Shown here piece after piece: positions 15,424-52,697 of a stretch of DNA of 64,000 nucleotides. A program made the translations under genes and the position numbers. This DNA comes from Lonsdalea britannica (lineage in GTDB: Bacteria; Pseudomonadota; Gammaproteobacteria; Enterobacterales; Enterobacteriaceae). The notes below the pieces were generated by a model that saw only the letters and a list, made by a program, of their open reading frames with translations, did not search any database and was not told where the DNA came from. Location of the stretch: NCBI RefSeq assembly GCF_002111595.1, contig NZ_LUTN01000008.1, positions 1-64,000 on the forward strand, written 5' to 3'. How positions within the stretch are numbered: the first letter of the stretch is position 1; each line of letters starts with the position of its first letter.

Positions 15424-15444
15424 TTTTCTCTCGTCTGCGGGGAA

Positions 15445-16788: not shown

Positions 16789-16799
16789 GGTACGCCCCG

Positions 16800-17264: not shown

Positions 17265-17285
17265 GAATGGGGTTCCGTACTCTTG

Positions 17286-18566: not shown

Positions 18567-18610
18567 TCGACGCTGACTCCACGTGTTGGGCACGATCGTG
18601 CTCGTATCAT

Positions 18611-19956: not shown

Positions 19957-20934
19957 TTAACGCAGTTTCACCAGTGTCCGACCGGTTACGCGGTTAGCGA
20001 TGAGATCGGCCGCGGCGGCGGGAACCTCTGCCAATGAGATCTCTTTGGCGATCTGTTCATAGAATGACGCGGGCAGCAGTTCGGCCAACCGTTTCCAGGC
20101 TTCTTGACGGCGCGGCGGCGGCGCCATGACAGAGTCCACCCCCTGTAACCGTACGTTGCGCAGAATGAACGGCATGACGGTGGTTGGCAGCGCGATACCG
20201 CCAGCCAGACCGCAGGCGGCGACCGTCGCGCCGTAATTCATCTGCGCGAGCAGCGTCGCCAGCACGTTATCGCCCACGGTATCGATAGCGCCGGCCCAAC
20301 GCTGCTTCTCCAGCGGACGCGGCGCGGCGGTGAATTCCTGTCGGTCAAGCACCTGCTCTGCGCCCAACTGCCGCAGATAATCGGCGTTTTCCGCTCGACC
20401 GCTCAGTGCGGACACCTGATACCCCAGCGCGTGGAGCAGGGCTATCGCGGTGCTGCCCACGCCGCCGCTGGCGCCGGTGACGATAATCTCGCCGTCCGCA
20501 GGCGTGACGCCGCCATCTTCCAATGCCATGACGCACAGCATGGCGGTAAATCCTGCGGTGCCTATGATCATGGCCTGACGTGCCGAAAGTCCTTCGGGCA
20601 GCGCAACCAGCCAGTCGCTATTCACTCGAGCCGACTGCGCCAGTCCGCCCCAATGATTTTCGCCAACGCCCCAGCCGGTCAGAATGACAGGCTGACCGAC
20701 GGCGAAGGCGGCATCGTCGCTGTTGAGCACGGTGCCCGCGAAGTCAATGCCGGGCACCATCGGAAACTGGCGGATGATTTTGCCTTGGCCTGTGATAGCC
20801 AGTGCATCTTTATAGTTGATGCTCGACCAGGATACATCGACAGTCACGTTCCCTTCCGGCAGTTGCGTCGGGTCGATGGTACGGACTTCAGACACCGTTT
20901 TACCCTGGTGCTGTTCGAGAATCAGAGCCTGCAT
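19957..20934 (-). CDS. acuI: acrylyl-CoA reductase (NADPH), YhdH/AcuI
   Basis: A medium-chain reductase (325 residues) that reduces toxic acryloyl-CoA to propionyl-CoA. It has the GroES-like N-terminus (SSINYKDALAITGQG), VPGIDFAGTV, and the Rossmann motif VTGASGGVGSTAIALLHALG. No structural zinc Cys cluster is seen, as usual for the family. The start at 20934 is fixed by an excellent ribosome site AGGAGGT six bases before ATG; an upstream frame extension has no such support. Divergent from csrD. Confidence 0.95.
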   Translation of the reverse strand: MQALILEQHQGKTVSEVRTIDPTQLPEGNVTVDVSWSSINYKDALAITGQGKIIRQFPMVPGIDFAGTVLNSDDAAFAVGQPVILTGWGVGENHWGGLAQSARVNSDWLVALPEGLSARQAMIIGTAGFTAMLCVMALEDGGVTPADGEIIVTGASGGVGSTAIALLHALGYQVSALSGRAENADYLRQLGAEQVLDRQEFTAAPRPLEKQRWAGAIDTVGDNVLATLLAQMNYGATVAACGLAGGIALPTTVMPFILRNVRLQGVDSVMAPPPRRQEAWKRLAELLPASFYEQIAKEISLAEVPAAAADLIANRVTGRTLVKLR

Positions 20935-28051: not shown

Positions 28052-28168
28052 TACAGACGGCGTGTGGATGCCGGCGGCAAGCGATAGTAGAAAACGGATA
28101 GTCGATGTGATGTGGATATGGCGCTTCCGCCCGCTCTGCAGCCGGTGACAAAAAACAAGGAGACATGC

Positions 28169-31100
28169 GTGAGGCGACTGCCCGGAATAGTACTTGCGAC
28201 GGGAGCCACCCTTATTGTACTGGTTGCGCTGGCGGTCAGTGGGCTGAGGCTCGTCATGCCGCATCTGGACGAATTCAGGCCACGCTTGGTGGCCTGGGCG
28301 CAGTCTGTTTCCGGGATTCCGATAGAGGTTGCCGGCCTTAACGGCACTTGGGAGCCGTTCGGCCCTACGCTGGAAATTAACCACATCCGCATTCAGCATC
28401 CGGATGCCGACTGGCAGTCGGAACGCGTCACGCTGGCGCTGGATGTATGGCAATCGTTGCTTCACCTGCGCTGGCAGTTCCGCGATCTCACCTTCTATCA
28501 GATGCGGCTGGACATCAAACATCCCCTGCAATTTTCGCAAAAAAACAACGACAGCGGTTGGCAGGCGAACCAGGTGACCGACCTGTTTCTGCGTCAGCTC
28601 GACCACTTTGATCTGCGCGACAGCCACATTACCTTTCTGACGCCCTCCGGCCCGCGCGCCGAACTGTTTATTCCCCAACTGACCTGGCTGAACGGCCACA
28701 ACCGCCATCGCGCCGAAGGCCAAATCAGCTTGTCGAGTTTTAACGGACAGCACGGCGTCGTGCAAATGCGCATGGACTTGCAGGATGATCAGGGATGGCT
28801 GAATGACGGCACCCTCTATCTGCAAGCCGATGATATCGATATGAAGCCCTGGCTGAGCCGCTGGTTGCGCAACAACACCGGTCTGGAGAACGCGGACTTC
28901 AGTCTGGCGACCTGGCTGCATGTGCGTAACGGCGAGATCGCCGGGGGCGATATTCTGCTCAATGAAGGCACGGCGGGCTGGCGCGATGGCAAAGAGACCC
29001 ACCGCATCAGCGTCGACAACATGATGTTGCAGGCCAACCGGCAGGATAACGGCTGGCAGCTGACTATCCCGGCGTTGAAGGTCGCGACGGACGGGCAGGC
29101 CTGGCCACAGGCGGCGATCTCTGCGCTGTGGTTGCCGGCCGATAAGCCGGTTGAGGGCGAAGCGTTACAGGGCGAACTGCGCGTGCGCAGCGGCAATCTG
29201 GCGCTGGAGCGCTTTACGCCGCTGCTGCCCTTGCTCTCTTCCGCCATGCCTGAGCTGAAAACACGCTGGCAGGCGTTGCAGCCGAAGGGCCAGTTGACGA
29301 CGCTGGCGCTGGATATTCCGCTGGCGACGCCGCAGGACAGCCGCTTTCAGGTCGGTTGGCAGGATGTCAGCTGGCAGCCCTGGCAGATGCTGCCGGGCGT
29401 TGACCACTTTTCCGGCACGGTCAGCGGGAGCGTGGGAAGCGGTGAGGTGCATCTTCAGTTGCATCAGAGCACGTTGCCCTATCCGGGCATGTTCCGCGCG
29501 CCGCTGGAAATGGAGAAAGTGGAAGGGAACCTGCACTGGCGAAGCGACGATCAAGGCTGGTCGCTGTGGTCGAAAGGCTTGGACGTGCAGGCCAAATCGC
29601 TGTGGGTCAACGGCGATTTTGACTACCACCATCCCGCCAAGGGCGAGCCGCAGTTAAATATTCTCGCCGGGCTGCGTTTAAGCGATGGCGCGGAGGCATG
29701 GCGCTACTATCCCGAACACTTTATGGGAAAAAGTCTGGTCAATTACCTCAGCCAGGCGGTGCAGGGGGGCTCGGTAGACAACGGCACCCTGATTTTTGCG
29801 GGGAACCCCTCGAACTTCCCCTTTACGCATCATGACGGACAATTTCAGGTATGGGTGCCGCTGAAAAACGCCAAATTCGGTTTCCAACCCGGCTGGCCTG
29901 CGCTAAACAGTGACAATATCACTCTGAACTTCCTGAATAACGGTCTGTGGATGAATGCGCCGCTGGCGCGGCTCGGCAACGTCGAAGGCCGCAACATAAA
30001 CGCCGCGATCCCCAACTATCAGCAGGAGCTGTTGCTCATCGACGGCGACCTGAGCGGCAGCGGCAAAGATGTGAGTGATTACTTCATGCAGACGCCGCTG
30101 AAATCCACATTGGGGACCGCGCTCCAGCAGTTACAGGTCGGCGGCAACGTGGCCAGCACACTGCATCTGTCCATCCCGCTGAACGGTAAGCTGGTACGGG
30201 CGAGCGGCGAGGTGACGATGAACAACAACAGCCTGCTCATCAAACCGCTGGGCGCCACGCTGCGCCAGCTCACCGGCCGCTTTAGCTACGACAATGGCAA
30301 TTTGAAGAGTGAACCGTTGCAGGCCACCGTGTTCGGGCAACCGCTGACCGCCAGTTTCACCACGGAAGAGCAGGCAAACGCATTCAAGATTAACGTGGAC
30401 CTGCATGGGAACGTACAGCCGGCTCGGCTACCCGGTTTGCCTGCTGACGTCGTGAGCGCGCTGGGCGGCAACGCGTCCTGGAAAACCCAGGTGGGCGTCA
30501 CGTTGCCGCACAAGGGCGGCGCAACCTATGACGTGAGCGCACAGGCCGACCTAAAAGAAGTAAGCAGTCACTTACCTTCACCGCTTAACAAGGCGGCGGG
30601 CAAGGCGCTGCCGGTACAGCTGAACGCCAAAGGCGACCTGCGCGGCTTTACCGTTCAGGCGTGCTCGCCAAAAGTCAGCGATTCAACAGTCGCTGGTTGC
30701 TGAAAAGACACTCGGTGGTCCTGGCTCAGGCGGTCTGGCAGGACGGCGGTAAGAATGCCCCTGCGTTGACCGGCGAAGACGGCGTCACGCTACATCTGCC
30801 AGCGCTTGACGGCGAACGCTGGCTGGGCCTGCTGTCCGGTGCGAAGTCCGCGATGGGATCGGGGGGGAGTGGATTCTCGTTGCCAGAGCGTATCACCGTG
30901 ACGACGCCGCAGTTGACGCTGGCGGGCCAGCAGTGGCGCGATCTGGCGTTGAGCGCGTATCCCACGGCGGGCGGCACAGCGGTGACGGCGCGCGGCCGCG
31001 AGATCGACGGACGCCTGGAGATCCCGCGTACCGGCGTATGGCGAAGCGACATTCGCTATCTTTACTACAATCCTCAATGGTCCGGGAGCGCGTCTCCTTC

Positions 31101-31995
31101 GACGTCGGGCAAAGCCGCAGCGCCCTTTACCCTCACCAATGAAACCTTTGCCGGATGGCCGACGTTACAGGTGAACTGCAACGAATGTTGGGCGATGGGA
31201 CAGAATCTGGGCCGGATTCAGGCGTTAGTCGTACCGGAGAGAAACAAGATTTCGATTCGTGGCGGGCTGGTGGATGACGGCAAGGCGCGTTTGACCCTCA
31301 ACGGCACCTGGCAACAGGCTGAGGGCGGAAGCCGCACCTCGCTGAAAGGCGTGCTGTCGGGCGATAGCCTGACGGAAAGCGCCGAGTGGCTGGGTATTTC
31401 CACGCCGCTGCGGGGTGAGTCCTTCAACATCGATTATGACCTCTACTGGCGTGGCGAACCGTGGTCTCCGGACCTGCCCACGCTGAGCGGCATTTTGCAG
31501 ACCCGCCTGGGCAAAGGGGAAATCACCAGCGCGAGCAGCGGGTCGGCCGGGCAGCTGCTGCGCTTGATCAGCTTCGATGCGCTGCTGCGCAAATTGCAGT
31601 TCGATTTCAGCGATACCTTTAACAAAGGCTTCTACTTCGACAGTATCCGCAGCTCGGCCTGGATTAAGTCCGGCGTGCTGCATACGGACAATCTGCTGGT
31701 CGATGGACTGGAGGCGGACATCGCCATGAGCGGCGATGTCGATCTGGTGAAACGGCAGATCAACATGGAAGCCACGATCGCGCCGGAGCTTTCCGGTACG
31801 GTCGGGGTGGCGGCGGCTTTTGTGGTGAATCCGGTCGTTGGCGCGGCGGTGTTCGCCGCCAGCAAAGTGTTGGCGCCGTTGTGGAATAAATTTTCCCTGA
31901 TTCGTTACCACATTTCCGGTAGTGTGGATCAACCGAAGATTCAGGAAGTTCTGCGCGAAAAGCAGAAAGCCCGCGCGGCGACATCCGGCCAGTAA
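28169..31995 (+). pseudogene. yhdP: AsmA-like phospholipid transport protein YhdP, one frameshift as written
   Basis: YhdP is a very large inner-membrane-anchored, periplasm-spanning AsmA-like protein that carries phospholipids to the outer membrane with TamB and YdbH. The start is GTG 28169 (MRRLPGIVLATG) after AAGGAG. An N-terminal helix spans about 5-27, then long beta-rich repeats. The frame breaks at 30659-30661: GGCGGTGCTCGCC has become GGCGTGCTCGCC. One added G joins the parts (FTVQA and KSQRFNSRWLL) into about 1275 residues, the family length. It probably represents a sequence error. Confidence 0.92.
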
Positions 31996-39471: not shown

Positions 39472-40811
39472 ATGACAATTATCACTCAGGTTGCAGAGCA
39501 GCGAAAAACGCTGGAACAGGCAGTGGCGCAGGCGCTGGAGTTGGCCCGCGCCGGTTCGGATGCCGCGGAAGTCGCGGTGACCAAGACCACGGGGATCGGC
39601 GTCAGCACCCGCTATGGCGAGGTGGAAAACGTTGAATTCAATAGCGACGGCGCGTTAGGCATTACCGTCTACCATCAGCAGCGCAAAGGCAGTGCGTCCT
39701 CGACGGACCTCAGTCCGGAGGCGATTGCCCGTACCGTGCAGGCCGCGCTGGATATCGCGCGATACACCTCGGTTGATCCCTTCGCCGGTCCGGCGGATGA
39801 AGCCCTGCTGGCGTTTGATGCGCCGGATCTGGATCTGTTTCATCCTGCCGAGTTGGATGCGGAGCGCGGCATCGAGCTGGCGGCCCGCGCGGAGCAGAGC
39901 GCGTTGCAGGCGGATGACCGCATCACCAATACGGAAGGCGGCAGCTTCAACAGCTACTACGGCGTGAAGGTCTTCGGCAATAGCACGGCATGTTGCAAAG
40001 CTACTGCTCCAGCCGCCACTCCATGTCCAGCTGTGTGATCGCCGGCGAAGGCGGCAACATGCAGCGCGATTACGCCTATACCATCGGACGCGCGCTGGAC
40101 GATCTGAAAACGCCGGAGTGGGTCGGTCAGGAGTGCGCACGCCGGACGCTGTCCCGACTGGCGCCGCGTAAGCTGTCCACCATGCAGGCGCCGGTGATGT
40201 TCGGCGCGGAGGTCGCGACCGGCCTGTTCGGTCATCTGGTGGGTGCCATCAGCGGCAGCAGCGTTTATCGCAAATCCACCTTCCTGCTGGATCAGCTGGG
40301 CCAGCAGATCCTGCCCGAGTGGCTGACGATTAGCGAGTTGCCGCATTTGCGCAAAGGGCTGGCGTCCACGCCGTTCGACAGCGAAGGGGTTCGCACGCAG
40401 GAGCGCGATATTGTGAAAGACGGCGTGCTCCAAACCTGGCTGATGACCTCTTATGCAGCGCGCAAACTGGGGATGCAGAGCACCGGTCATGCGGGCGGCA
40501 TTCACAACTGGCGTATTGCCGGACGCGGTCTGGACTTCGACGGCATGCTGCGTGAAATGGGAACCGGGCTGCTGGTGACCGAACTGATGGGACAGGGCGT
40601 TAGCGGCGTGACGGGCGACTATTCGCGCGGCGCGGCCGGTTTCTGGGTGGAGAACGGTCAGATCCAGTACCCCGTCAGCGAAATCACCATCGCGGGCAAT
40701 CTGAAAGACATGCTGCGTAATATCGTCACCGTAGGCGACGATATTGAAACCCGCAGTAACATCCAATGTGGTTCGGTCCTGCTGCCGGCCATGAAGATCG
40801 CCGGGGCGTAA
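39472..40811 (+). pseudogene. pmbA: metalloprotease subunit PmbA/TldE, one frameshift as written
   Basis: PmbA (TldE) partners TldD in the heterodimeric protease and lacks the zinc motif. The N-terminal half runs to [12 protein letters not shown]. The continuation ([15 protein letters not shown] and beyond, through [15 protein letters not shown]) is in another frame. The break lies at 39984, where AATAGCCACGGC has become AATAGCACGGC. One added C gives about 446 residues, the normal length. Likely a sequence error. Confidence 0.92.
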
Positions 40812-40858: not shown

Positions 40859-41632
40859 CTACAGTTTCAGCCTCAGCCCGTCGTACGCCGCATGCACATG
40901 CTTTGGCAGCGGGTGCTTCCGCAGCCAGCGATCCAGTGAATGACCGATATGCGTCAGGTACATTTTTCCCGGTTTTAACCGTTCGAAGATGCTCAACGCG
41001 AGGGTCAAATCGTTATGATTTCTGGGAGGCGTGGGCTGCGGTGGCTCGCTGCAGTCGAGTACCAGATAATCCACCGGCCGTCCGGCCAGAAAACGCTCGG
41101 TGTCCTCCGGCAGCCCCACGGTATCCGTGAGGTAGGCCAGCGAGGCGTATTGCGTCTGAAACAGGTAGCCATAGGTGATTCTGGAGTGGCGCAGCGGCAG
41201 CGGCGTGGTCGCCACACGGCCGAACAGTCTCGTGTCGAAGGGCGTCAGCGGAGGCTGGAATTGCAGCATGCCGGGGTGCTGGTACAGATCGTCGCAGCCA
41301 TCGGGATCGGGCGGCCCGAACACCGGTATCGCTTCGCCGCAGCCCCAGCGCAGCGGGAATAGTCCCTGAACGTGGTCCATGTGGTAATGGGTGAGCAGAA
41401 AGCGCTGAATCTCCCCGGCGCTAAAGCGGTTGTCCAGATCGGGCAAGCCCGCGTCGATCAGCGTCATTTCCCCGTGGTCGATCAGCGCGGCGCAGCAGGC
41501 GCGCCGTCGCCGTTGCGGAGACGAGCGTGCGCTCTGGCACACCACGCAATCACAGCCGAAGGCCGGAACCTGCTGCGCGCCGCCGGTGCCCAGAAAATGA
41601 AATATCGACGTGTGACGCGTCTCATCCGACAT
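40859..41632 (-). CDS. phnP: phosphoribosyl 1,2-cyclic phosphate phosphodiesterase PhnP
   Basis: PhnP opens the cyclic phosphate made by C-P lyase to ribose 1,5-bisphosphate. The 257-residue metallo-beta-lactamase-fold enzyme has the metal motif LLTHYHMDHVQGL, LTHIGHS near the end, and an N-terminal Cys cluster (FGCDCVVCQS) that binds structural zinc in the family. It is the last gene of the phosphonate run and overlaps phnN by 11 bases. Confidence 0.95.
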   Translation of the reverse strand: MSDETRHTSIFHFLGTGGAQQVPAFGCDCVVCQSARSSPQRRRRACCAALIDHGEMTLIDAGLPDLDNRFSAGEIQRFLLTHYHMDHVQGLFPLRWGCGEAIPVFGPPDPDGCDDLYQHPGMLQFQPPLTPFDTRLFGRVATTPLPLRHSRITYGYLFQTQYASLAYLTDTVGLPEDTERFLAGRPVDYLVLDCSEPPQPTPPRNHNDLTLALSIFERLKPGKMYLTHIGHSLDRWLRKHPLPKHVHAAYDGLRLKL

Positions 41633-42185
41633 TCTCTTTTCTCTCCGTTTGTGACAGCAACTGCCAGAATCGCGCCAGCGTCTGGGGCAACGGACCGTCG
41701 TTATGCAGTAAGGCGCAGTCTGACGGCAAATTGCGCTGCTGTTCCTGCGCCCGCAATAGTCGCGCTTCGATCTGACTCGTATTTTCCCGTCCGCGCGTCA
41801 GCAGCCGTTGACGCAGGATCGGGGGCGATACCGCCAGACAAAGTGGAAACAGCCGCGCGCCGTAACGCTGTTGCGCCTGTTTCAGGTAAGCCCGTGAGCC
41901 GTTGACGACCACATCCAGATCGCGTTCCAGCCACAGATCGATCTCGATGCCGATGGCGTAGTGGTTATGATGCGCCTGCCAGTGCAGCGCGAACAGGCCG
42001 TGACGACACCGTTGGCCAAACTCGTTGTCCGTGAGCGAAACGTGGTTTTCTCCGGGCAGACCGGCAGGCCGGGTGATGTAGCGGTGTGCGACCAGCAGGC
42101 GTTGCGGCGAGCTGGCGCGTATCGCATCCAGCAGACTGTCCTTTCCCGCGCCCGAAGGCCCTATCAAATAGATCAGTCTGCTCAT
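41622..42185 (-). CDS. phnN: ribose 1,5-bisphosphate phosphokinase PhnN
   Basis: PhnN phosphorylates ribose 1,5-bisphosphate to PRPP, salvaging the C-P lyase sugar product. It has 187 residues, guanylate-kinase-like, with the P-loop LIGPSGAGKDSLL and RYITRPAG. The start MSRLIYLIG at 42185 lies one base after the phnM stop; a longer upstream frame overlaps phnM and is not supported. Confidence 0.95.
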   Translation of the reverse strand: MSRLIYLIGPSGAGKDSLLDAIRASSPQRLLVAHRYITRPAGLPGENHVSLTDNEFGQRCRHGLFALHWQAHHNHYAIGIEIDLWLERDLDVVVNGSRAYLKQAQQRYGARLFPLCLAVSPPILRQRLLTRGRENTSQIEARLLRAQEQQRNLPSDCALLHNDGPLPQTLARFWQLLSQTERKENVG

Positions 42186-42186
42186 A

Positions 42187-43323
42187 TCAGAATACCTGCT
42201 CGCCTTGCCGCCATACCCGTTGCAGCGTGATCTGCGGGCCATGACGATGGACCAGAACCAGATCGGCGCGCTTCCCTTCGGCGATCACCCCCCGATCGTT
42301 CAGCCGCAGCGCCTGCGCCGGATTGCGGCTAACCAATGCGATAGCCTGAGGCAAGTCGTACTCGTTGCGCTCGTCTTCTGCTATCAGAAACGCGGCTTCC
42401 AGCAGGCTGGCCGGATAGTAGTCCGAAGAGAGGATATCCAGCAAACCGGCTTCCGCCAGCTGATGCGCGGCCACGTTGCCGGAGTGTGAGCCGCCGCAGA
42501 TGATGTTCGGCGCCCCCATCAGCACATGCATACCGACCTGATGGGCTGCTTGGGCGGCGATCTCCGTCGTGGGAAATTCGGCGATCGCCACGCCGTGACG
42601 ATAGGCGTCCATCACGTGTTCTTCCGCCGCATCATCGTGGCTGGCCATCGTGATCCCTTTGGCCCGGCATAGACTGACGATGTCTTCACGGTTGGACAGG
42701 GACCAGCGCTGCGAGCCTTCAATCTGTTCCGCTTCAAACTGCGCCATTTGCTCATCGTTGAGGTGGTATTTGCCTTTGTAATACTCGTGGTACTTCTCCC
42801 GCGAGGCGAACTGCCGCTGCCCCGGCGAGTGATCCATCAATGACGCCAGCGCGACCGGCGGCAGATCGCACAGTTGTTCAAACAGCGGCAGCGTCTCCTT
42901 ATGCGGCAGTTCGCAGCGCAGATGCAGCAAATGCTCCGCCCGGTTGAGGCCCGCTTTCTGCGTCTCGACCACCGTATCGGTCATCTTGCGCAGGTTGTCG
43001 AGCCGGTGGCCGCCGTCCCGGACATCGCCGACGGCGAGCGCGTCTAATACTGTGGTGATCCCGCTGGAGATTATCGCGGCGTCGTGCGCGCGCATGGCGG
43101 ACGTCGGCGGCCAGCTGACGCCGGGACGCGGGGTGAAAAATTTGTCGAGGTTGTCGGTATGTAGCTCAATCAGTCCGGGGATCAGCCACGCGCCGCCGCC
43201 GTCCACAGCTCCGGGTAAACGGCTCGGCGCATTGCTGATGTGCTGAATCACACCCTGATGAACCGATAACGATCCGTTGATGACCTCGTCCGATAACACC
43301 ATTCGTACATTATTGATGATCAT
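42187..43323 (-). CDS. phnM: alpha-D-ribose 1-methylphosphonate 5-triphosphate diphosphatase PhnM
   Basis: PhnM removes pyrophosphate from the ribosyl-phosphonate triphosphate intermediate. It has 378 residues, the E. coli length. Amidohydrolase features are [19 protein letters not shown] (metal ligands) and [12 protein letters not shown], then CGGSHSGN. It overlaps phnL by 14 bases; the start [10 protein letters not shown] at 43323 matches the family. Confidence 0.96.
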
Positions 43324-44029
43324 AGGATCCCTCCTCATGAGGCGCGGTGACGGGCATGGCATAGATGCGGTCAGACACGCGCGCGCGAACCTCTTCGTCA
43401 TGGAAAATACCGACAATGGCCGCGCCTCTCGCTTTGGCCTGAATGATGGACTCCGTGACGGCATCGCGATTGACCGCATCCAGCGAGGCGGTCGGCTCAT
43501 CCAGCAGCAGAATGGGATAGTCGCCGATAAGCCCGCGGGCGATATTCACGCGCTGCTGTTCGCCGCCGGAGAACGTCGCTGGCGCCAGCGACCACAGTCG
43601 CTCGGGCACATTCAACCGAGTCAGTAACTCACCGGCGCGGATTTCGCTTTCCTGACGCGAAATACCCCGTTCCAGCAGCGGTTGGATGACGGCGCTTAGG
43701 GTGCTGATGCGCGGAATGACCCGCAAGAACTGGCTGACCCAGCCGATCGTGTGTCGACGCACATCGAGGATGTAGCGCGCGTCGGCCGACACCATATCCA
43801 CCCAGCCATCCTGGTGGCGCGCGTAGATGTGGCCGCTATCCGGCTGATAGTTGCCGTAGAGTGAACGCAGCAGCGTAGATTTTCCGCTGCCGGAATGGCC
43901 GTGGAGGGCGATGCACTCACCGCTTCTCACCTCCAGATTGATGTCTCTGAAAACCGGCAGACGAGCGCCCTGCTGGTTATGCAGTACGAAAGTTTTACTC
44001 ACATGTTCGATGCGTAGGCGAATATCCAT
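43310..44029 (-). CDS. phnL: C-P lyase ABC-type subunit PhnL
   Basis: PhnL is an ABC-ATPase-like subunit (239 residues) that works with PhnGHI in attaching ribose triphosphate to the phosphonate. Walker [13 protein letters not shown], signature [15 protein letters not shown], Walker [13 protein letters not shown]. It is cytoplasmic and not a transporter despite the fold. It follows phnK by 28 bases. Confidence 0.96.
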
Positions 44030-44057
44030 TAAAGGCGCCTCCTGGGGGGTTGGTCTG

Positions 44058-44852
44058 CTAGAGGATGGATGACACCAGCAGTTGGGTATAAGGATGATGA
44101 GGATCGTCCAGCACGCGGTCGGTCAATCCCTGTTCGACGACCTGTCCTTGTTTCATGACCAACAGCCGATGGGATAGTAGGCGCGCTACGCCCAGATCGT
44201 GGGTAACGATGACGACGGCCAGCTGCATGTCCGTCACCAGCGTACGCAGCAGGTCCAGCAGGCGAGCCTGCACCGAAACATCCAGTCCGCCGGTCGGCTC
44301 ATCCATAAAAATGAGACGCGGCGAGGTCACCAGATTGCGGGCGATTTGCAGACGCTGCTGCATCCCGCCGGAGAAGGTGGTCGGCAGATCGTCCATGCGT
44401 TCTGCAGGCAACTCGACGTTGTTCATCCAGCGCGCGGCCGTCTCGCGAATGTGGCCGTAATGGCGCTCGCCGATGGCCATCAGGCGTTCGCCGATATTGC
44501 CGCCGGCGGAGACCGCTGGCCGCAGCCCCAGCAGCGGATGCTGCCAGACCACGCCCCATTCTGTACGTATCAGCGCCCGACGCCGACGCTCGCTGATGTC
44601 ATAAATCGACAACGCCTGTTGCTGGCGATCCCGGTAGGTGACGCAGCCTTGTTGCGGCGCCAGACGGGCGGAAATCGCGTTCAGCAGGGTGGTTTTTCCT
44701 GAACCAGACTCTCCGACGATCCCCAGAACCTCACCCGGCCAGAGCTGGAATGAGACGTTCTGGAATCCTTTGCCCGGCGCATACAGATGGGTGAGGGTAT
44801 CGACTGACAACAGCGGACCGTCGTCCTTACGGTAGTTATTGCGTGTTTTCAT
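44058..44852 (-). CDS. phnK: C-P lyase ABC-type subunit PhnK
   Basis: PhnK binds the PhnGHIJ core, next to PhnJ, and drives turnover with ATP. It has 264 residues, slightly longer at the N-terminus than E. coli. Walker [12 protein letters not shown], signature [15 protein letters not shown], Walker [16 protein letters not shown] 44852 overlaps phnJ by 17 bases; longer upstream frames are antisense-like and are rejected. Confidence 0.96.
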
Positions 44853-45720
44853 GCGCTTTCTCCTGATGGTCCCGTTGCTGCTGGCAATAGTCGGTGTCCG
44901 AGCAGACAAACATGCGGCTGCCCGCATCATCGATGACGACTTCGTCCAAAAAGCTGTCATGAGAGCCGCAGATAGCGCAGGGCTCGTCCCACTGCTGCAC
45001 GGTGAAGGGATGATCGTCGAAGTCGAGGCTTTCGACTGGGGTATAAGGGGGAACCGCATAAATGCGTTTTTCGCGTCCGGCGCCGAACAGTTGCAGGGCC
45101 GGCATCATGTGCATTTTGGGATTATCGAATTTGGGGATAGGAGAAGGGTCCATCACGTAGCGCTGATTGACCTTGACCGGATAGGCGTACGTGGTGGCGA
45201 TGTGTCCGTAGCGCGCGATGTCCTCATACAACTTGACCTGCATGACACCGTACTCTTCCAGCGCATGCATTTTTTGGGTCTCCGTCTCCCTCGGCTCGAT
45301 AAATCGGAGCGGCTCTGGAATCGGTACCTGGTAGACGATGATCTGGTCTTCCTTCAGCGGCGTCTCCGGTATTCGATGGCGGGTCTGAACGATGGTCGCC
45401 TCCGCCGTCTTTTCCGTTGTTTCAACGCTGGCAACATTGCGGAAGAAGTGGCGGATAGAGACGGCGTTGGTCGTATCGTCGGCCCCCTGGTCGATGACTT
45501 TGAGAACGTCGTCCGGCCCGATGATGCTGGCGGTAATCTGAATACCGCCGGTCCCCCATCCGTAAGGCATTGGCATCTCCCGGCTGCCGAAGGGCACCTG
45601 ATGGCCGGGAATGGCGATAGCTTTAAGGATGGCGCGACGGATCATGCCTTTGGTGCCTTCATCCAGATAGGCGAAATTATAGGCGGTTTGTTCTGCATCT
45701 TCAGAAGCGTTAGTCGTCAT
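44836..45720 (-). CDS. phnJ: C-P lyase radical SAM subunit PhnJ
   Basis: PhnJ performs the radical cleavage of the carbon-phosphorus bond in 5-phosphoribosyl 1-alkylphosphonate, releasing the alkane or other carbon product. In this 294-residue copy the unusual 4Fe-4S cysteines C248, C251 and C273 keep the CX2CX21C spacing. C279 corresponds to the catalytic Cys272 of E. coli, and Gly39 to the radical Gly32. All key residues are present, so the enzyme should be active. It overlaps phnI by 11 bases. Confidence 0.98.
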   Translation of the reverse strand: MTTNASEDAEQTAYNFAYLDEGTKGMIRRAILKAIAIPGHQVPFGSREMPMPYGWGTGGIQITASIIGPDDVLKVIDQGADDTTNAVSIRHFFRNVASVETTEKTAEATIVQTRHRIPETPLKEDQIIVYQVPIPEPLRFIEPRETETQKMHALEEYGVMQVKLYEDIARYGHIATTYAYPVKVNQRYVMDPSPIPKFDNPKMHMMPALQLFGAGREKRIYAVPPYTPVESLDFDDHPFTVQQWDEPCAICGSHDSFLDEVVIDDAGSRMFVCSDTDYCQQQRDHQEKAHENTQ

Positions 45721-46816
45721 GATGTTGGTCTTCCTGCGTGGATGAATACTCCTGTCGCAGACGCTTGAGGAGTTCCAGTTCTGATTGAAAATCGACGTAA
45801 TGGGGAAGTTTCAGGTGAGAGACAAAACCGGCCGCTTCGACATTGTCGACATGAGACAGAACAAACTCTTCATCCTGCGCCGGGCCCTGAATTTCTTCGT
45901 GACAGTCGGCGGCCTGTAGCGCACGGTCCGCAAGGGCGACGGTAATCGCTTTGCGTTCGGCTCGCCCAAAGGTCAGCCCATAGCCGCGGGTGAAGTGCGG
46001 GGCCTGTTCCGTGGGTTTAATGAAACCATTGACGGTCTCGCACTCCGTCACCAGGATGTCGCCGATTTCCACCGCCATATCCACTTCCTGAATGAACATC
46101 ACGACCGTGACCAGGCCTGTGCGGATTTCGCCAACAAAAGGGTGATTGCGGCCATAGCCGCGCTGGGTGGAGTACCCCAGCGACAGCAAAAAACCCTCAT
46201 CGCCGCGGATCAGTTGCTGTAGTCGCGCCGAACGCGAACACGGATAGTTTGGCGGATTAAGGGTGATATCCTCCGGCTCTTCGTCGCGTTCGTCCACCGG
46301 CGGCACCAGCCCCTGCTGTGTCAGGAAGTGAAACGCATGAGGAACGGTGTCTTCGGCAGGCTCCTCATCCTGTGTTTCCGGCGCTGTCGGGGCGGTTGGC
46401 GGTTGGCCCTCCGCCAACAGCGTGAAGTCCAGCAGCCGATGGGTATAGTCGTAAGTCGGCCCCAAGAGTTGCCCGCCTGGAAGATCTTTAAAGATCGCGG
46501 AAATGCGCCTTTCCAGACGCATGGATGCCGTAGCCAGCGGTTCGCTCACCCCCCAGCGAGGCAGGGTGGAACGGTAGGCGCGCAGCAGAAAAATCGCTTC
46601 GACGAGATCGCCGCTAGCCTGCTTGATCGACAGCGCAGCCAGCTCGCGATCGTAGATATTGCCTTCGGTCATGACGCGGTCGACCGCCAGGCCGAGCTGC
46701 TGTTCTATCTGTTCACAGCTCAGCTCCGGGATCGTCGGCTGACCGCGTCGACGACAGGCTTGAAGTTGGTGTGCGGCTTCAATGGCTTTTTCACCGCCCT
46801 TCACTGCAACATACAT
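45710..46816 (-). CDS. phnI: C-P lyase core subunit PhnI
   Basis: PhnI is the nucleosidase/transferase subunit that attaches alkylphosphonate to the ribose of ATP together with PhnG, PhnH and PhnL. It has 368 residues. Conserved stretches are YVAVKGGEKAIEAAH, GGQLLGPTYDYTHRLLDF, YPCSRSARLQQLIRGDEGF and AAGFVSHLKLPHYVDFQ. Its ATG shares one base with the phnH TGA, indicating coupling. Confidence 0.97.
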   Translation of the reverse strand: MYVAVKGGEKAIEAAHQLQACRRRGQPTIPELSCEQIEQQLGLAVDRVMTEGNIYDRELAALSIKQASGDLVEAIFLLRAYRSTLPRWGVSEPLATASMRLERRISAIFKDLPGGQLLGPTYDYTHRLLDFTLLAEGQPPTAPTAPETQDEEPAEDTVPHAFHFLTQQGLVPPVDERDEEPEDITLNPPNYPCSRSARLQQLIRGDEGFLLSLGYSTQRGYGRNHPFVGEIRTGLVTVVMFIQEVDMAVEIGDILVTECETVNGFIKPTEQAPHFTRGYGLTFGRAERKAITVALADRALQAADCHEEIQGPAQDEEFVLSHVDNVEAAGFVSHLKLPHYVDFQSELELLKRLRQEYSSTQEDQHHDD

Positions 46817-47418
46817 CAGCACTCCTCCACTCGAGTGGTTCTGGGTATAGCGAGCAGCTTCTTGCCGGAGGTGAACAGAAAATCGAGACCCATCGGGAAA
46901 GGATGTGGCCGCTCGCAGAGATAGCGCCGTATCGCGCTGGGAAGATGCGGGGAGATGATTTTGACGTTATTTACGCCCGGGCCGCTTAGCTTGAGCAATC
47001 TCCCGTTGTTCAGTCCATCCACTTCCAGAATGATGGTGGCTGATTTCTCCGGCTCGACTTCGTTTCCGCACGGGAAACACATCAAATCGTGTTGGATAGG
47101 TCGACTATCGAACGTGTTGGTTTTCCCGTTCAACAGAACGAAATACGCTTCTGCGGCATTGGAAGTGATCGGCACATTGGTGTGTAAACACAGCGTTCTC
47201 AGCAGGAGTGGATTACTGATATTCCGGTCGATGAACAGCGGCGTTTTGTGGCTGCTCAGCGTCAACAGCACGGCGATGGTCGATGAAGAAATATTGTTCA
47301 GTCCCTCAATCCCGGGAACGGTCACAGTCACCCCGGGTTCGCTCATCGCTTTGACGATTTTTCTGAAGCAGGCCTGAGTCCCGAATACCGGATTGGCGAA
47401 TCCATTCAACATGTCCAT
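46816..47418 (-). CDS. phnH: C-P lyase core subunit PhnH
   Basis: PhnH is a structural/catalytic subunit of the PhnGHIJ core (200 residues, close to E. coli 194). Typical opening GFANPVFGTQACFRKIVKAM and ending FPMGLDFLFTSGKKLLAIPR. The start follows AGGAG and lies two bases after the phnG stop. Confidence 0.95.
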   Translation of the reverse strand: MDMLNGFANPVFGTQACFRKIVKAMSEPGVTVTVPGIEGLNNISSSTIAVLLTLSSHKTPLFIDRNISNPLLLRTLCLHTNVPITSNAAEAYFVLLNGKTNTFDSRPIQHDLMCFPCGNEVEPEKSATIILEVDGLNNGRLLKLSGPGVNNVKIISPHLPSAIRRYLCERPHPFPMGLDFLFTSGKKLLAIPRTTRVEEC

Positions 47419-47420
47419 GA

Positions 47421-47867
47421 TTACTCTCCTCTGACCAACGTAAAGAAGTTGACTCGACTGGCGGCGACTTCCCGTCGCTGCCGGTCATGTTCAGCTTGCT
47501 GTTGCTTGGCGAGAGGAGAGACCACGTTCTTCCACAACTGGTTAAAGGCGGACTGGGTTTGTAATAAAGCATCAATCAAGGCACAGCGCTCGGCATGAGT
47601 CTTGTCTCTGCCGAGGATATAGCTGTAGCCGCAAATGCCGTCCTTAATTTGCAGAGCCGCGCGGGTGACGGTCATATCGCCCACCATAAAACGCTGCCCT
47701 GTGGATTCCATGCGCCCTTGCAGCTGGATCAGACCGATTTCCGTCGGTCTCAGTATTTGATAGTCCGCGACAATATTGAGAGGTTGCCAAAAGGACAGCA
47801 GTGCTTCGGCACGGCTGCGTGACAGCACGGACATCCAGTAAGCGCGTTGCTCTTTTTTCACCACCAT
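47421..47867 (-). CDS. phnG: C-P lyase core subunit PhnG
   Basis: PhnG is the small core subunit (148 residues) of the C-P lyase complex. Recognisable by YWMSVLSRSR, TEIGLIQLQGRME, DKTHAERCALIDALL and ASRVNFFTLVRG. Its ribosome site GGAGG and its ATG lie inside the end of the upstream dehydrogenase gene (ATGGTGGTGA overlap), which ties biosynthetic and catabolic genes together at the translational level. Confidence 0.95.
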   Translation of the reverse strand: MVVKKEQRAYWMSVLSRSRAEALLSFWQPLNIVADYQILRPTEIGLIQLQGRMESTGQRFMVGDMTVTRAALQIKDGICGYSYILGRDKTHAERCALIDALLQTQSAFNQLWKNVVSPLAKQQQAEHDRQRREVAASRVNFFTLVRGE

Positions 47868-48768
47868 TTTTCTGCCTCCGGCTCTTGCTGTTGTGACTGC
47901 TGCGACAAATAGGCAAAACATGCGGTCTGATCCTGGGGCGGCCTGAGGGCTTCGGCGGTATTCAGATAGATGCGCTGAACACGGTCAAAAAAGGCGCTAT
48001 GGATCGCTCGTTCCTGAAACAGGGCGTGTGCCAGATCCAGGTCCTTGATGCGGATAGCTAACGGGACGGAAACCTGATCAGTGGGGTGAAGATAGCGATT
48101 CAGCATCACCTCCATATAGGTGGAGCGACCTCGCCCTAGCGGTAGCGCTTTCTGCAAGGCGGCCTGGCTGATGCCGGACTTCTCCGCCAGCAGAATGGAC
48201 TCTGCGGCAACCAGCAGGTGGACGGCTTCGCAGTAGTTGTTGATCACTTTCATGGCCTGTGCGGCCTGGTTGCTGTCCATGACGGCATAGCCGTTGCTCA
48301 GGAAGGAGAGCAACGGGGGCAAGACGTCGGCAAAGGCCCGCGGGATGGGGCCTACCCAGCAAGCCAGTTTGCCGGTGCGCGCGCCTTCGGGGCCCCCGGA
48401 AACGGGGCTTCGACGTAGTGAGCGCCGTGTCGTTGGAAAAACGCCTCCATGTGCTGGCTATCTTGGGGGCCGATAGTGCTGATGTTGACAATAAGAGGCT
48501 GACATTCCTCGAGTTTATTTTTTATTTCAGGGGTACAAAAAAGCGTTTTCGTGGCCTGCGCATCGGTCAGGCAAATCAGGATGATCGGTGCTTTACGCGT
48601 CAATAATTGGCTGAGTGAACTCACCGCGTGTACGCCGCTCCCGGTGAGTGCTTCAGCTTTACTTGCCGTACGATTGTAAAGGCTGAGGGTGTATTGGCAC
48701 TGGCGTAGCCTGAGCGCAATTGCCTTTCCTAAGACGCCGACGCCAACCAGGGAAATGTGTTTTGTCAT
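47858..48768 (-). pseudogene. beta-hydroxyacid-dehydrogenase family reductase of the phosphonate run, one frameshift as written
   Basis: A NAD(P)-dependent enzyme of the 3-hydroxyisobutyrate/tartronate-semialdehyde reductase family. Seen: Rossmann motif LVGVGVLGKAIALRL, the substrate-loop sequence SGGPEGARTGK (in the restored frame) and the catalytic Lys context QAAQAMKVINNY. The frame breaks at 48404-48407, where a run of five C has become four; one added C gives about 303 residues. Family members reduce small semialdehydes, so phosphonoacetaldehyde, product of the preceding gene, is a plausible substrate, giving 2-hydroxyethylphosphonate. That assignment is inference. Overlaps phnG by ten bases. 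Confidence 0.82.
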
Positions 48769-48819
48769 ATTGAGCATCCTTTCAACGCCACCGATACGGG
48801 GAAGGGTGGTAGGGGGTTA

Positions 48820-49974
48820 TCAGCGGGAGTGAGCTGGCTGCGACAGGAAGTGCATAAAACAGGTTCGATTCTGAGAAGGCGATGTTGTGGGCCGTCCCAG
48901 ATTGTCGCGATGCCCAATGCGGCATTTCACCTCGATAAATTGACTTCCCTGACTCGTCAGAGCCTGACGAAGCACGGCTTGCAGGGCTTCTCGGCTTCCT
49001 ACTGTCGAAACCTGTCGATAGCCGCAGGCGGTAGCGATGGGGGCTAAGGGCAGTCGCGACGCCGCCGTTCGCTGACCGCCGACGGAGTCATGGGCGCCGT
49101 TATTGATAACGATATGGATAAGCGTGGGGGAAAGGGCGCTATTGGTCAGCCCGCCCATGTGCATCAACGTCGCGCCGTCACCGTCCAGACAGACAACTTT
49201 TTTACCCGGTCGACCTTCGCTGATACCCAGCGCTATCTGGCTGGCGAGGCCCATGCCGCCTACGGTCAGAAAGTCACGGTCGTGCTCTTCGCCGCGCTGT
49301 TCACGTAGCTCGAACAGCTCGCGCGATAGCATACCGGTGGTGCTGACAATGGGGATGTCGGCCGGTAGTACGGACAGAACTTCCGCAACGATCTCTTCGC
49401 GCAGCAGCGTGGCTGACGTTCGCGACGGCTGCCTGGCTTGCTGGCAGGGAGAGAATGTATTTTTACGTACGATTAAAGCGACAGGACGTTTATCGCGTTT
49501 TGCCTGTTCCAGGAGCTGTTCTATCTGCGGGAAGTCGATATCAGGCTCGCCTTCCAATATATGGTAGGGAATAGTGAGTATCTCTAACTGCGGTAGCGTG
49601 ACCCGACCTTGCATAACATGCTGCGGTTCGTCATTCAGTTGCGTTCCGTCTGGTTTTGTTTCGCCACGCCAGCCGATAATAAATAGCATCGGGATACTGT
49701 AAACGTCTGTCGTCGCCAATGAACAAATTGGATTAACGATATTTCCCAGCCCGGAGTTTTGTAAATAAACCACAGGTACTAAGCCTGTTGCCAACTGATA
49801 GCCAATAGCCATTCCTGCTGCAGCGCCTTCATTGCAAGCTAACTGATGACGCATATCTTCTTTTGATCCGTCGATAGCCAGACAGAATTCTTTTAATAAA
49901 GAATCAGGGACGCCACTATAGAATCGAATACCTTTCTGGTGTAAAAAAACCAAAAAATCATCAGGGCTAATCAT
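48820..49974 (-). CDS. ppd: phosphonopyruvate decarboxylase
   Basis: A thiamine-diphosphate enzyme converting 3-phosphonopyruvate to phosphonoacetaldehyde, the step that makes PEP mutase thermodynamically productive. It has 384 residues. The catalytic Glu lies at 49 (CNEGAAAG), and the ThDP motif GDG at 265-267 is followed by NN at 291-292. The C-terminal SPSQN/FMHFL region is typical of Ppd. Sulfopyruvate decarboxylase is related, but the adjoining PEP mutase gene settles the choice. It starts 58 bases after pepM. Confidence 0.93.
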   Translation of the reverse strand: MISPDDFLVFLHQKGIRFYSGVPDSLLKEFCLAIDGSKEDMRHQLACNEGAAAGMAIGYQLATGLVPVVYLQNSGLGNIVNPICSLATTDVYSIPMLFIIGWRGETKPDGTQLNDEPQHVMQGRVTLPQLEILTIPYHILEGEPDIDFPQIEQLLEQAKRDKRPVALIVRKNTFSPCQQARQPSRTSATLLREEIVAEVLSVLPADIPIVSTTGMLSRELFELREQRGEEHDRDFLTVGGMGLASQIALGISEGRPGKKVVCLDGDGATLMHMGGLTNSALSPTLIHIVINNGAHDSVGGQRTAASRLPLAPIATACGYRQVSTVGSREALQAVLRQALTSQGSQFIEVKCRIGHRDNLGRPTTSPSQNRTCFMHFLSQPAHSR

Positions 49975-50032
49975 GATAATTTCCTTCTTTTTAATGATTG
50001 GTTGTATTGCTAAATTGTGAGTCACCCAGTGA

Positions 50033-50944
50033 TTATTTCGTGCCCGGAATTAAATTGAGGATCTCCTTTATAGAAATACATTTGTCTTCTATTTCTTGCG
50101 TACGGCCATTTTTGAGAATGTGGGGAAGAATTTCACGCATGGCCGGATAAGATGCGCGCAACATATGGTTGGCATAGATAATGATGTTAAAACCACTATC
50201 GACCAGGTGTTCAAAGGTAATGTCGTTAAAACTGGTCGGCACGCATACCAAAGGGATCTGCGGATAATGACTGCGAAAGATTTTTGCAAATTCGAGAATT
50301 TCATCCGGAGTTTTAAGCCGGCTGTGGATCATAATACCATCAGCGCCCGCCTCGACGTAACGCAGCGCGCGGTCAATGGCATCGTCCATACCGGCCTCCA
50401 ATATCAGGCTTTCAATGCGCGCAATCAACATGAATTCCGGCGTCAACTGAGCCTGTTTGGCCGCTTTGATTTTGGCGCAGAAGTCGTCCACGCTAGCCTG
50501 GGTTTGTTTTACATCGTTACCAAATAGTGAGTTTTTCTTCAGGCCGGTTTTATCCTCGATAATAATGGCGGAAATCCCCAGATTTTCGGCCTCGCGGATA
50601 TGGTACACAAGATGTTCTATCTGGCCGCCGGTATCACCGTCAAAAATTAATGGGCTGTTCGTGACATTGAAAATATCCGCGATGGAATTAAACCGGCGGC
50701 TGTAATTGACTAATTCTGTATCGGGTTGACCGCGTAAAGTAGAATCGGTCAGAGAGCTTGACCAAAAAGCGTCAAATTTATGACTCACTCCTTCTCTTAT
50801 ATATTCTGCTTCTTCAATGAGCATGGCGGATAATGGACTGTGAGCTTCCATTACGCGAATCGCTTTTTTACTATTCAGTAGTTCCCTCAGTGCGCCACGA
50901 CGAGAATCTGGTGTTTGGCCTTTATTGGCTATACTTTTAGACAT
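50033..50944 (-). CDS. pepM: phosphoenolpyruvate phosphomutase
   Basis: PepM forms the C-P bond by isomerising PEP to phosphonopyruvate, the entry step of nearly all phosphonate biosynthesis. In the 303-residue isocitrate-lyase-superfamily protein the diagnostic motif EDK-X5-NS is intact (130-139, EDKTGLKKNS), and the mutase Asp is at 58 (KFDAFWSSS), with FDGDTGG at 101-107. The ribosome site GAGGAT precedes ATG. It is first in the run; base composition is visibly more AT-rich than the flanking core genes. Confidence 0.95.
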   Translation of the reverse strand: MSKSIANKGQTPDSRRGALRELLNSKKAIRVMEAHSPLSAMLIEEAEYIREGVSHKFDAFWSSSLTDSTLRGQPDTELVNYSRRFNSIADIFNVTNSPLIFDGDTGGQIEHLVYHIREAENLGISAIIIEDKTGLKKNSLFGNDVKQTQASVDDFCAKIKAAKQAQLTPEFMLIARIESLILEAGMDDAIDRALRYVEAGADGIMIHSRLKTPDEILEFAKIFRSHYPQIPLVCVPTSFNDITFEHLVDSGFNIIIYANHMLRASYPAMREILPHILKNGRTQEIEDKCISIKEILNLIPGTK

Positions 50945-51509: not shown

Positions 51510-51782
51510 TTATTCTTCGTCAAAGCCGGCGTCGAATAGTTTAACGACGGCCGCAAGGGCTTCGTTTTCGTCTGGACCCGTCGCCTCGATTTCGATGCGC
51601 CGGCCCTTGGCGGAGTCCAGCATTAACATGGCGATCACGCTGCTGGCTTCCGCCTGCGTGCCGCTCTCATTGCGCAGAATGACTTCGGCATCGAAATTTT
51701 GTACCAGTTCGAATAGCTTCATCGCCGGTCGGGCGTGCATACCCAGACGGTTTTTGACTTCAACGGTATGTCTTACGGTCAT
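51510..51782 (-). CDS. npr: nitrogen-PTS phosphocarrier protein NPr
   Basis: An HPr-like phosphocarrier (90 residues) between EI-Ntr and EIIA-Ntr. The phospho-His lies in [14 protein letters not shown] (His16). The Ser-containing regulatory segment is [20 protein letters not shown]. It is the last gene of the rpoN operon and overlaps rapZ by four bases. Confidence 0.97.
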
Positions 51783-52632
51783 GATTTACGTTTTTCCAGC
51801 GTACGGTGGCGCAGTTGCACGTTTTTGCCTCTGGAGTGGAAGTAATCGGCCAACTGCTCGGCGATATATACCGAACGGTGTTTACCACCAGTGCAACCAA
51901 TAGCGACGGTCAGGTAGCTGCGATTGTTGGTTTCCAGCATCGGCAGCCACAGCTCAAGATAGCTGCGCGTTTGATAGATGAAGTTATGCACTTCGGTATG
52001 GCGATCCAAAAACGCCGCGACAGGTTTGTCCAGCCCGGTCATGGGTCGCAGCTTCGGATCCCAGTGCGGGTTCGGCAGGAAGCGAACGTCAAACACATAG
52101 TCGGCGTCAATCGGGATACCGTGCTTGTAGCCGAACGATTCAAACACCATCGTCAGCTCGCGTTCGCGCTTGCCCAACAGGCGGGCGCGCAGCATCTCGG
52201 CCAGTTCATGTACTGACATCTCGGAAGTGTCGATGATCAAGTCGGCGCGGGAGCGCAGCGGCTCCAGCAGATTATTCTCTTCGTCGATGGCGTTTTCGAG
52301 CGACAGGTTCTGGCTGGATAGCGGATGCAGGCGACGGGTATCGCTGTAGCGACGGATCAGCGTATTGCGGTCGGCGTCCAGGAACAGCAGCTGCGGCGAG
52401 AAACTGCTCGGCAGTCGGGTCAGCGCCTGTTCCAGCACTTCCGGCGTTTCCGGCATGTTGCGCACGTCAATGCTGACCGCCGCCGAGATATTCCGCGCCG
52501 CCAGGGCATTGGCCAGATCCGGCAGCAGAATTACAGGCAGGTTATCCACGCAGTAGAAACCCATGTCTTCCAGTGCGCGCAGGGCAACGGATTTGCCCGA
52601 GCTGAACGACCACTGACAATCATCAGCACCAT
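51779..52632 (-). CDS. rapZ: RNase adapter protein RapZ (5' frame disturbed as written)
   Basis: RapZ guides RNase E to the small RNA GlmZ, controlling glucosamine-6-phosphate synthase. The body from [21 protein letters not shown] to the end is intact, with the Walker B-like region, [18 protein letters not shown] and the basic C-terminal RNA-binding tail. The start [10 protein letters not shown] at 52632 is in a different frame. The break lies at 52602, where TTCAGGCTCGGGC has become TTCAGCTCGGGC, destroying the Walker A. One added G gives 284 residues, the E. coli length. Confidence 0.92.
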
Positions 52633-52697
52633 CTGACGACTCCCCCAGGCAGCGGAATGGTGAGGGTCTCGCTGCCACCGTTAGCTTATGTTAGTCA

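Follow-up and report, generated by a model that had tools for sequence, protein, structure and literature searches.

The stretch analysed here, which we call the window, comprises 64,000 nucleotides (nt) of Lonsdalea britannica (contig NZ_LUTN01000008.1, positions 1 to 64,000; C8:1-64000 in our source genome G000, which is 3.88 Mb long and 99.55% complete), and its minus strand carries, between positions 40859 and 50944, a run of phosphonate-making genes joined to the genes of a carbon-phosphorus (C-P) lyase. Family profile searches for all twelve genes identify pepM, ppd, a reductase gene and phnG, H, I, J, K, L, M, N and P in the order that the initial annotation had proposed, with every family at the claimed place and on the claimed strand. 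For the third gene, the homologous reductase sequence is indeed present there, but it is divided between two open reading frames (ORFs) in different frames instead of forming one. In the list below, bit scores from the TIGR and Pfam searches are followed by the curated cut-off in parentheses.

50033..50944, minus strand: pepM, phosphoenolpyruvate mutase; TIGR02320 420.5 bits (319.55); motif EDK(X)5NS in the translation
48820..49974, minus strand: ppd, phosphonopyruvate decarboxylase; TIGR03297 476.2 bits (312.5)
47858..48777, minus strand: reductase of the beta-hydroxyacid-dehydrogenase type, Psf3-like, frameshifted; ORFs 48352-48777 and 47858-48322
47421..47867, minus strand: phnG; TIGR03293 158 bits (89)
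46816..47418, minus strand: phnH; TIGR03292 160.4 bits (91.5)
45710..46822, minus strand: phnI; PF05861 514.6 bits (34.5); His328 and His333 retained
44836..45720, minus strand: phnJ, radical-SAM C-P lyase; PF06007 499.6 bits (25); Gly32 and Cys241/244/266/272 retained
44058..44816, minus strand: phnK, homologous part (the ORF reaches 45059); TIGR02323 388.2 bits (302.85)
43310..44029, minus strand: phnL; TIGR02324 335.2 bits (256.3)
42187..43323, minus strand: phnM, diphosphatase; TIGR02318 501.7 bits (390.55)
41622..42185, minus strand: phnN, ribose 1,5-bisphosphokinase; TIGR02322 201.9 bits (156)
40859..41632, minus strand: phnP, cyclic phosphodiesterase; TIGR03307 389.8 bits (272.25)

The EDK(X)5NS motif is what we take to be the PepM signature, and the closest matches of the window PepM are those of Lonsdalea quercina and L. 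iberica (94-97%). The start of ppd was placed by homology, its ORF reaching 50025 from a GTG. PhnG, H, I, J, K, L and M form a complete set with scores above cut-off, and conservation of the listed PhnI and PhnJ residues (numbered as in PMC9947105) suggests that the residues for C-P lyase activity are in place. The small overlaps and gaps described in the initial annotation were confirmed, the spacing ranging from -17 to 58 nt: pepM and ppd are 58 nt apart, the ppd stop lies 42 nt from the reductase ORF start (48777), and the junctions onward from reductase-phnG to phnN-phnP measure -10, 2, -7, -11, -17, 28, -14, 1 and -11 nt.

The block is not peculiar to this strain. All five Lonsdalea genomes encode PhnJ, as do 15 of 25 Pectobacterium genomes, of which four have two copies, and stretches of up to 20 kb around PhnJ sorted the loci into two classes. 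Class A has the order pepM-ppd-reductase-phnGHIJKLMNP and occurs in the five Lonsdalea (in G394 the locus stops inside ppd at a contig end) and in 12 of the 25 Pectobacterium genomes, so the recurrence of the pepM-to-phnP order that the initial annotation had put forward for checking is borne out. Class B, found in seven Pectobacterium genomes, reads phnF-GHIJKLM-CDEE; this order was fully read in L081, and at L080-L082 and L099-L102 the importer genes follow phnM, with neither phnN nor phnP in 20 kb. Because four genomes (G401, G402, G413 and G417) hold both classes, the two C-P lyases probably differ in role. PepM itself is present in 13 of the 25 Pectobacterium genomes, 12 of which carry the full class A block; the thirteenth, G408, has a distinct PepM (321.5 bits versus 428.6-434.3) and no PhnJ. 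The named hosts of class A are L. quercina (two strains), P. peruviense, P. zantedeschiae, P. aroidearum and Pectobacterium sp. PL152, these six complete records being counted once, within the G genomes; the L. iberica contig breaks off inside ppd. These hosts are plant pathogens, and Lonsdalea is a genus of tree pathogens. Broken genes do occur in other class A loci, namely ppd in two pieces (L088, L097) and phnK together with phnL (L083).

Both the contents of the block and its central junction appear to be maintained. Protein identity per gene is 56-97% across the loci of the two genera (reductase excluded; matches covering more than 80% of the gene), and omega is at most 0.224 for all 12 genes in four genome pairs, where dS, the synonymous divergence, is unsaturated. 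phnG starts immediately after the reductase stop (0 nt) in all 15 of the class A loci that were scored; the window, whose frameshifted junction measures -10 nt, and L083 stand outside this count, and L042, which is the genome of L086, also has 0 nt. Flanking DNA is common to four Lonsdalea, differs from that in Pectobacterium and falls into several groups inside Pectobacterium (16 loci, L083 excluded); as the same genes stand amid varied flanks, it is the block that forms the unit. In seven ORF-listed loci and the compared flanks, neither a tailoring gene nor a transaminase or transporter was seen to accompany it, and none of 208 matching plasmid records covers 80% of a 7.9-kb query. In the window the block has the following neighbours.

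51510..51782, minus strand: npr/ptsO-like ORF, upstream neighbour outside the block; same-length ORFs in L043 and L084
39472..40811, plus strand: pmbA, downstream neighbour outside the block, split by a frameshift; intact at 446 amino acids in L084

The first of these, presumably npr/ptsO, forms the upstream edge of the block. At L093 a polysaccharide-like cluster (15036-19991, with a bacterial sugar transferase, PF02397) lies directly downstream of the block, a flank that L097 and L098 have in common with it.

In a PhnJ tree of 61 rows, all 17 class A rows group in a single clade (97/91). The clade next to it (94/82) contains E. coli, class B and the remaining rows from Enterobacterales, and the fork joining the two is less supported (89/67). 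As class A PhnJ forms a clade of its own, the block is not a fresh splice into an E. coli-type operon, and a recent swap of synthesis genes into such an operon, which we had considered, was ruled out on this ground. All 61 rows retain Gly32 and the four cysteines. At position 33, beside the radical glycine, every one of the 17 class A rows has His, as does one of the 44 others (L163), the remaining 43 having Tyr; His33 may reflect ancestry only.

Outside the two genera, no linkage of this kind was seen in the sampled PepM genomes. PepM scores above cut-off in six of 394 Enterobacterales genomes, PhnJ in 56 and both in three: G000 and G126, where the genes are linked, and G097, where they are unlinked and PepM has an internal stop. 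In 398 genomes from across the phylum, PepM was found at E<=1e-70 in 21, of which 19 are above cut-off. Leaving aside G000 and G126 and adding four from the order sample gives 23 PepM genomes (G344, G486 and G549 under the equivalog cut-off), nine of which also encode PhnJ. In none of these nine do pepM and PhnJ lie within 15 kb on one contig, the nearest pair being about 40 kb apart (G486), although in six they are on separate contigs only, which leaves a draft-assembly doubt. Among PepM genomes, then, co-presence of PhnJ is not rare and linkage is. In tblastn searches, 28 other PepM loci, some with short flanks, gave no phnG, H, I, J, M, N or P and no counterpart of this reductase, and L184 and L185 gave phnC- or phnK-like ATP-binding cassette (ABC) matches only.

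Two of the more distant pepM loci are described here for their own contents. The next closest pepM-ppd pair is that of Pseudomonas fluorescens EK007-RG4 (L047 12077-17505; 67% PepM), which has no phn genes and is neighboured by a CbiA-like ATPase, a TauE exporter, an aldehyde dehydrogenase, a carbamoyltransferase and a TauD-like dioxygenase, making up an unassigned phosphonate cluster. The 8749-bp plasmid pStPd2 of the beetle symbiont Candidatus Stammera capleta (L230, CP144779.1) encodes a PepM 49% identical to that of the window along with an NtaA-type flavin mononucleotide monooxygenase and homocitrate/isopropylmalate-synthase-like, LeuC-like, LeuD-like and methyltransferase-like proteins, a set which we take to resemble the pantaphos cluster of Pantoea; L230 is one of 22 'Candidatus' records that match the window PepM.

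As controls we used 40 PhnJ loci in stretches of about 20 kb, drawn from 35 of the 54 other order genomes above cut-off and five phylum genomes. Nearby phnD and phnE were found in 30 of the 40, phnF in 39, and pepM and the reductase in none, whereas phnD, phnE and phnF are nearby in 0 of 15 class A loci. The initial statement that C-P lyase operons normally sit beside an importer therefore describes most of the controls but is not universal, as ten of them lack phnD and phnE, and the missing phnF and present pepM distinguish the block more sharply than the missing phnCDE.

The absence of phnCDE, phnF and phnO from the locus was upheld in that E. coli phnD, phnF, phnO and the first 92 residues of phnE gave no tblastn match in the window and phnC matched only at the level of a general ABC ATPase (25-35%). 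The same question had been raised for the rest of the genome, and neither PhnE (best 82.7 against a cut-off of 216.7) nor PhnD (49.4 against 112.05) was found above cut-off in the source genome; nor was PhnW, the transaminase of the 2-aminoethylphosphonate route (94 against 360.8). The lack of an importer above cut-off, the constant linkage in two genera and the zero-gap junction together suggest, in support of the initial annotation, that the substrate of this C-P lyase is probably endogenous. Searches for regulatory elements were less informative. No Pho box was found upstream of pepM in the scanned class A loci, the E. coli phnC control likewise not rising above shuffles; promoter-like sites numbered 7 against 6.9 expected and terminator-like sites 13 against 11.6; and the pepM-ppd gap of 180-230 nt in Pectobacterium contained no element that we could name. 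No Rfam family lies inside the block in the window, L093, L094 or L084. Elsewhere in these stretches, Rfam matches were obtained to the soft-rot antisense RNA Rev11 (window 29854-30270, minus strand within yhdP, 115.4 bits) and to the small RNA isrN (L094 2465-2607, 136.2 bits).

The reductase gene that is broken in the window is whole in all 16 related loci, where it gives a single uninterrupted match without stops. The window assembly also has panF (13493-14949), yhdP (28112-31995) and pmbA (39472-40811) broken by frameshifts and the start of rapZ (52601-52678) shifted, and a 15.2-kb alignment with L042 contains 12 one-base gaps on the window side and six gaps on the L042 side, in coding and non-coding sequence alike. 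Because other window genes are broken too, the frameshift is likely to be either an artefact of assembly or a break of very recent origin. Both reductase halves are under purifying selection relative to L042 (omega 0.13 and 0.20). The intact relatives combine NAD_binding_2 (PF03446) with NAD_binding_11 (PF14833), keep K176 and N180, which we take to be the catalytic Lys and Asn, in six of six sequences, and score far under the curated cut-offs of named reductases. Against the PDB, the best match of the reductase profile is 5u5g (144.7 bits; second best 95.4), which is titled 6-phosphogluconate dehydrogenase and which we take to be Psf3 of Pseudomonas fosfomycin synthesis. The counterpart ECA0489 of Pectobacterium atrosepticum is termed a homologue of 2-oxopropylphosphonate reductase in the introduction of PMC11546328. 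Since ppd precedes the reductase, its natural substrate would be phosphonoacetaldehyde and its product 2-hydroxyethylphosphonate (2-HEP); the product named in the initial annotation thus stands, as an inference to which the 5u5g match and the published homology both point.

Part of this block is already in print. In P. atrosepticum, deletion of fom1, that is pepM (ECA0487), abolishes the extracellular 31P phosphonate signals, and fom1 is expressed 800-fold more strongly with plant extract than in LB medium and is also induced by pectin and quorum sensing (PMC11546328). The mutant stays virulent on plants primed with 1.0 mM salicylate, shows threefold pectate lyase activity in culture and is less resistant to H2O2, the last being the sole mutant trait not restored by fom1 alone (PMC11546328). 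The phosphonates in the medium, at 31P shifts of 15-25 parts per million (ppm), were assigned to 2-diethoxyphosphorylethanamine and phenylphosphonic acid, not to 2-HEP (PMC11546328). We consider these structures doubtful, though unrefuted, because a diester amine such as the first should not stick to an anion exchanger. The signals at 17.2 and 57.4 ppm, in addition, presumably resemble those of free ethanol. A 2009 table lists ECA0487-ECA0491 as island PbaI5, 'phosphonate metabolism (fom1, fom2, phnG)', and a second table lists island HAI1 from ECA0499, where the capsule island of P. atrosepticum begins (PMC2718846). As HAI1 begins at ECA0499 and leaves twelve loci from ECA0487, we infer from the numbering that ECA0487-0498 is the 12-gene block. 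The words 'phn', 'operon', 'catabol' and 'ethylene' do not occur in PMC11546328, and a coupled C-P lyase is not discussed in the parts of PMC11546328 and PMC2718846 that were consulted, although we do not claim the linkage as unreported; the genes themselves are thus known. Production and consumption of phosphonates are rarely found in one cell, with fewer than 1% of genomes having both in one survey, though both occur in SAR11 HTCC7217, two Roseobacter isolates and many Burkholderiaceae (PMC8931226). In our samples, with PhnJ in nine of 23 PepM genomes, the two are found together less rarely.

What, then, would be gained by making a C-P bond and cleaving it in the same cell? For phosphorus gain the cycle would be futile, because PEP (phosphoenolpyruvate) already carries phosphorus, and a make-then-cleave route becomes understandable once the carbon fragment is taken as the aim. 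Our preferred explanation, in which we place somewhat less than even confidence, is that the main fate of the pathway is self-contained: 2-HEP would be made from PEP and cleaved by the C-P lyase to ethylene, with phosphorus kept as phosphoribosyl pyrophosphate (PRPP). PepM would convert PEP to phosphonopyruvate, Ppd would decarboxylate this to phosphonoacetaldehyde, and the Psf3-like reductase would yield 2-HEP, which PhnIGHL would couple to the ribose triphosphate of ATP. PhnM would trim the ribosyl triphosphate intermediate and PhnJ would then cut the C-P bond, so that two carbons would exit as ethylene while phosphorus would remain on the ribose, from which PhnP and PhnN would give it back as PRPP. 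The individual enzyme steps are established for these families; 2-HEP as intermediate, its use by the class A C-P lyase and the release of ethylene by these species are what we infer for the block. Because the product would be a gas, neither importer nor exporter would be needed, and the ethylene reading could explain why importer and tailoring genes are missing, why the junction has no gap and why phnN and phnP are present, as well as the separate PhnJ clade, the plant-pathogen hosts and the induction by plant cues. A bolder form of it, a dedicated PEP-to-ethylene pathway of plant pathogens that is induced by plant cues and uses phosphorus as a recyclable handle, we regard as rather doubtful. 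To our knowledge, such a route would be distinct from the known bacterial ethylene routes, namely the ethylene-forming enzyme, 2-keto-4-methylthiobutyric acid (KMBA) and methylthio-alkane reductase. Sulfitobacter HI0054, which has a C-P lyase, turned 250 nM 2-HEP into 232.9 nM ethylene, and a similar conversion is cited for P. stutzeri (PMC5649143). Since C-P lyase bacteria have been measured to do this, release of a specific carbon product is the best of the three meanings that the initial annotation offered; ethanol, which we had considered as the cleavage product of 2-HEP, was dropped on the same data.

Several points weigh against the ethylene explanation. The pepM-dependent phosphonates in P. 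atrosepticum medium, assigned by the authors to compounds other than 2-HEP (PMC11546328), mean that the lyase does not consume all product, and the threefold pectate lyase of the pepM mutant has no ready explanation through ethylene. The conversion of 2-HEP to ethylene comes from other species under phosphorus limitation (PMC5649143), and the route has a high ATP cost. A single transcript over the block is putative, the reductase is broken in the window, and its predicted structure has a mean predicted local distance difference test (pLDDT) score of 53, too low for judging substrate binding. We found no ethylene measurement for these bacteria, having made no dedicated search of the Pectobacterium or Lonsdalea ethylene literature.

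A serious rival, somewhat unlikely in our estimate, is that a secreted phosphonate is the useful product and the adjoining C-P lyase a safety valve, for phosphorus salvage or for protection of the cytoplasm. The initial annotation had suggested detoxification of an own product, and this survives as a contender because P. atrosepticum does release pepM-dependent phosphonates and its pepM mutant, still virulent on salicylate-primed plants, is less H2O2-resistant (PMC11546328); that pepM alone does not restore this resistance could indicate a polar effect on the downstream phn genes. However, neither a tailoring gene nor an exporter was seen to accompany the block, and zero-gap coupling would make constant breakdown of the own product costly. 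We also know of no toxicity of 2-HEP. The remaining meaning in the initial annotation, a phosphorus reserve built in phosphate plenty and cleaved in need, would fit the presence of both halves in one cell and the complete recovery through phnN and phnP, but the 0-nt junction in 15 of 15 loci leaves no intergenic room for separate control (a promoter inside the reductase being possible), in published work it is plant cues and quorum sensing that induce pepM, and a storage role tested in Prochlorococcus was unsupported (PMC8931226). This makes a reserve very improbable, and of the initial interpretation as a whole it is the weak part, whereas a probably endogenous substrate and 2-HEP as the likely product are supported.

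Scavenging of outside phosphonates through another permease, with the biosynthetic genes as chance neighbours, would be in keeping with the ten of 40 control loci that likewise lack phnD and phnE, as a local importer is evidently not obligatory. We nevertheless consider it improbable given the constant linkage in two genera despite different flanks, the separate PhnJ clade, the presence of a true importer operon alongside the block in four genomes and the lack of PhnD and PhnE above cut-off in the source genome. Least probable of all is that the core acts as a ribosylating machine only, with a ribosyl phosphonate as its product: His33, in 17 of 17 class A PhnJ and one of 44 others, speaks for it, but Gly32 and all four cysteines are kept, and phnP and phnN, which have a use only once the bond is cut, occur in each of the 17 class A loci (the window and 16 others). 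Whether the pathway is dead in the window strain is a separate matter, compatible with any of these explanations and weighed apart from them. A real reductase frameshift, as the assembly has it, would mean this, yet the same assembly breaks panF, yhdP, pmbA and the rapZ start, both reductase halves look selected and the other eleven genes are open, so that we think loss of the pathway unlikely.

Compared with known systems, the block is a C-P lyase operon in which a synthesis module takes the place of the module for import and control. It shares with the E. coli phnCDEFGHIJKLMNOP operon (L103) the phnG-H-I-J-K-L-M-N-P order and the catalytic residues of PhnJ and PhnI, but it lacks phnC, D, E, F and O, has pepM-ppd-reductase in the place of phnCDEF and belongs to a separate PhnJ clade. 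Class B of Pectobacterium likewise has the C-P lyase core, in the same genus and, in four genomes, in the same cells, yet it differs in having phnF and an importer, in lacking phnN and phnP over the stretch read, and in having pepM in 0 of 7. The Psf3 of the Pseudomonas fosfomycin pathway (5u5g, the name being presumed) is of the same superfamily as the reductase and its best solved match; no other fosfomycin-type gene was seen in the block, whose reductase is preceded by ppd, which makes phosphonoacetaldehyde its likely substrate. P. atrosepticum ECA0487-0489, in PbaI5, matches its first three genes with fom1 (pepM), fom2 (ppd) and the 2-oxopropylphosphonate-reductase homologue (PMC11546328; PMC2718846). 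The conversion of 2-HEP to ethylene in Sulfitobacter and P. stutzeri matches the proposed last steps, with the difference that these bacteria take up outside 2-HEP under phosphorus limitation (PMC5649143) and the host of the block would make it from PEP.

Making and breaking of the C-P bond thus lie in a single run of genes, without a spacer where the two halves meet and under selection in two genera, whereas the two traits have been described as largely exclusive, and the purpose of an endogenous C-P lyase becomes testable. If the ethylene explanation is true, soft-rot and canker bacteria would have an unrecognised route to a plant hormone, C-P lyase would gain a biosynthetic use, and the pathway would be new.

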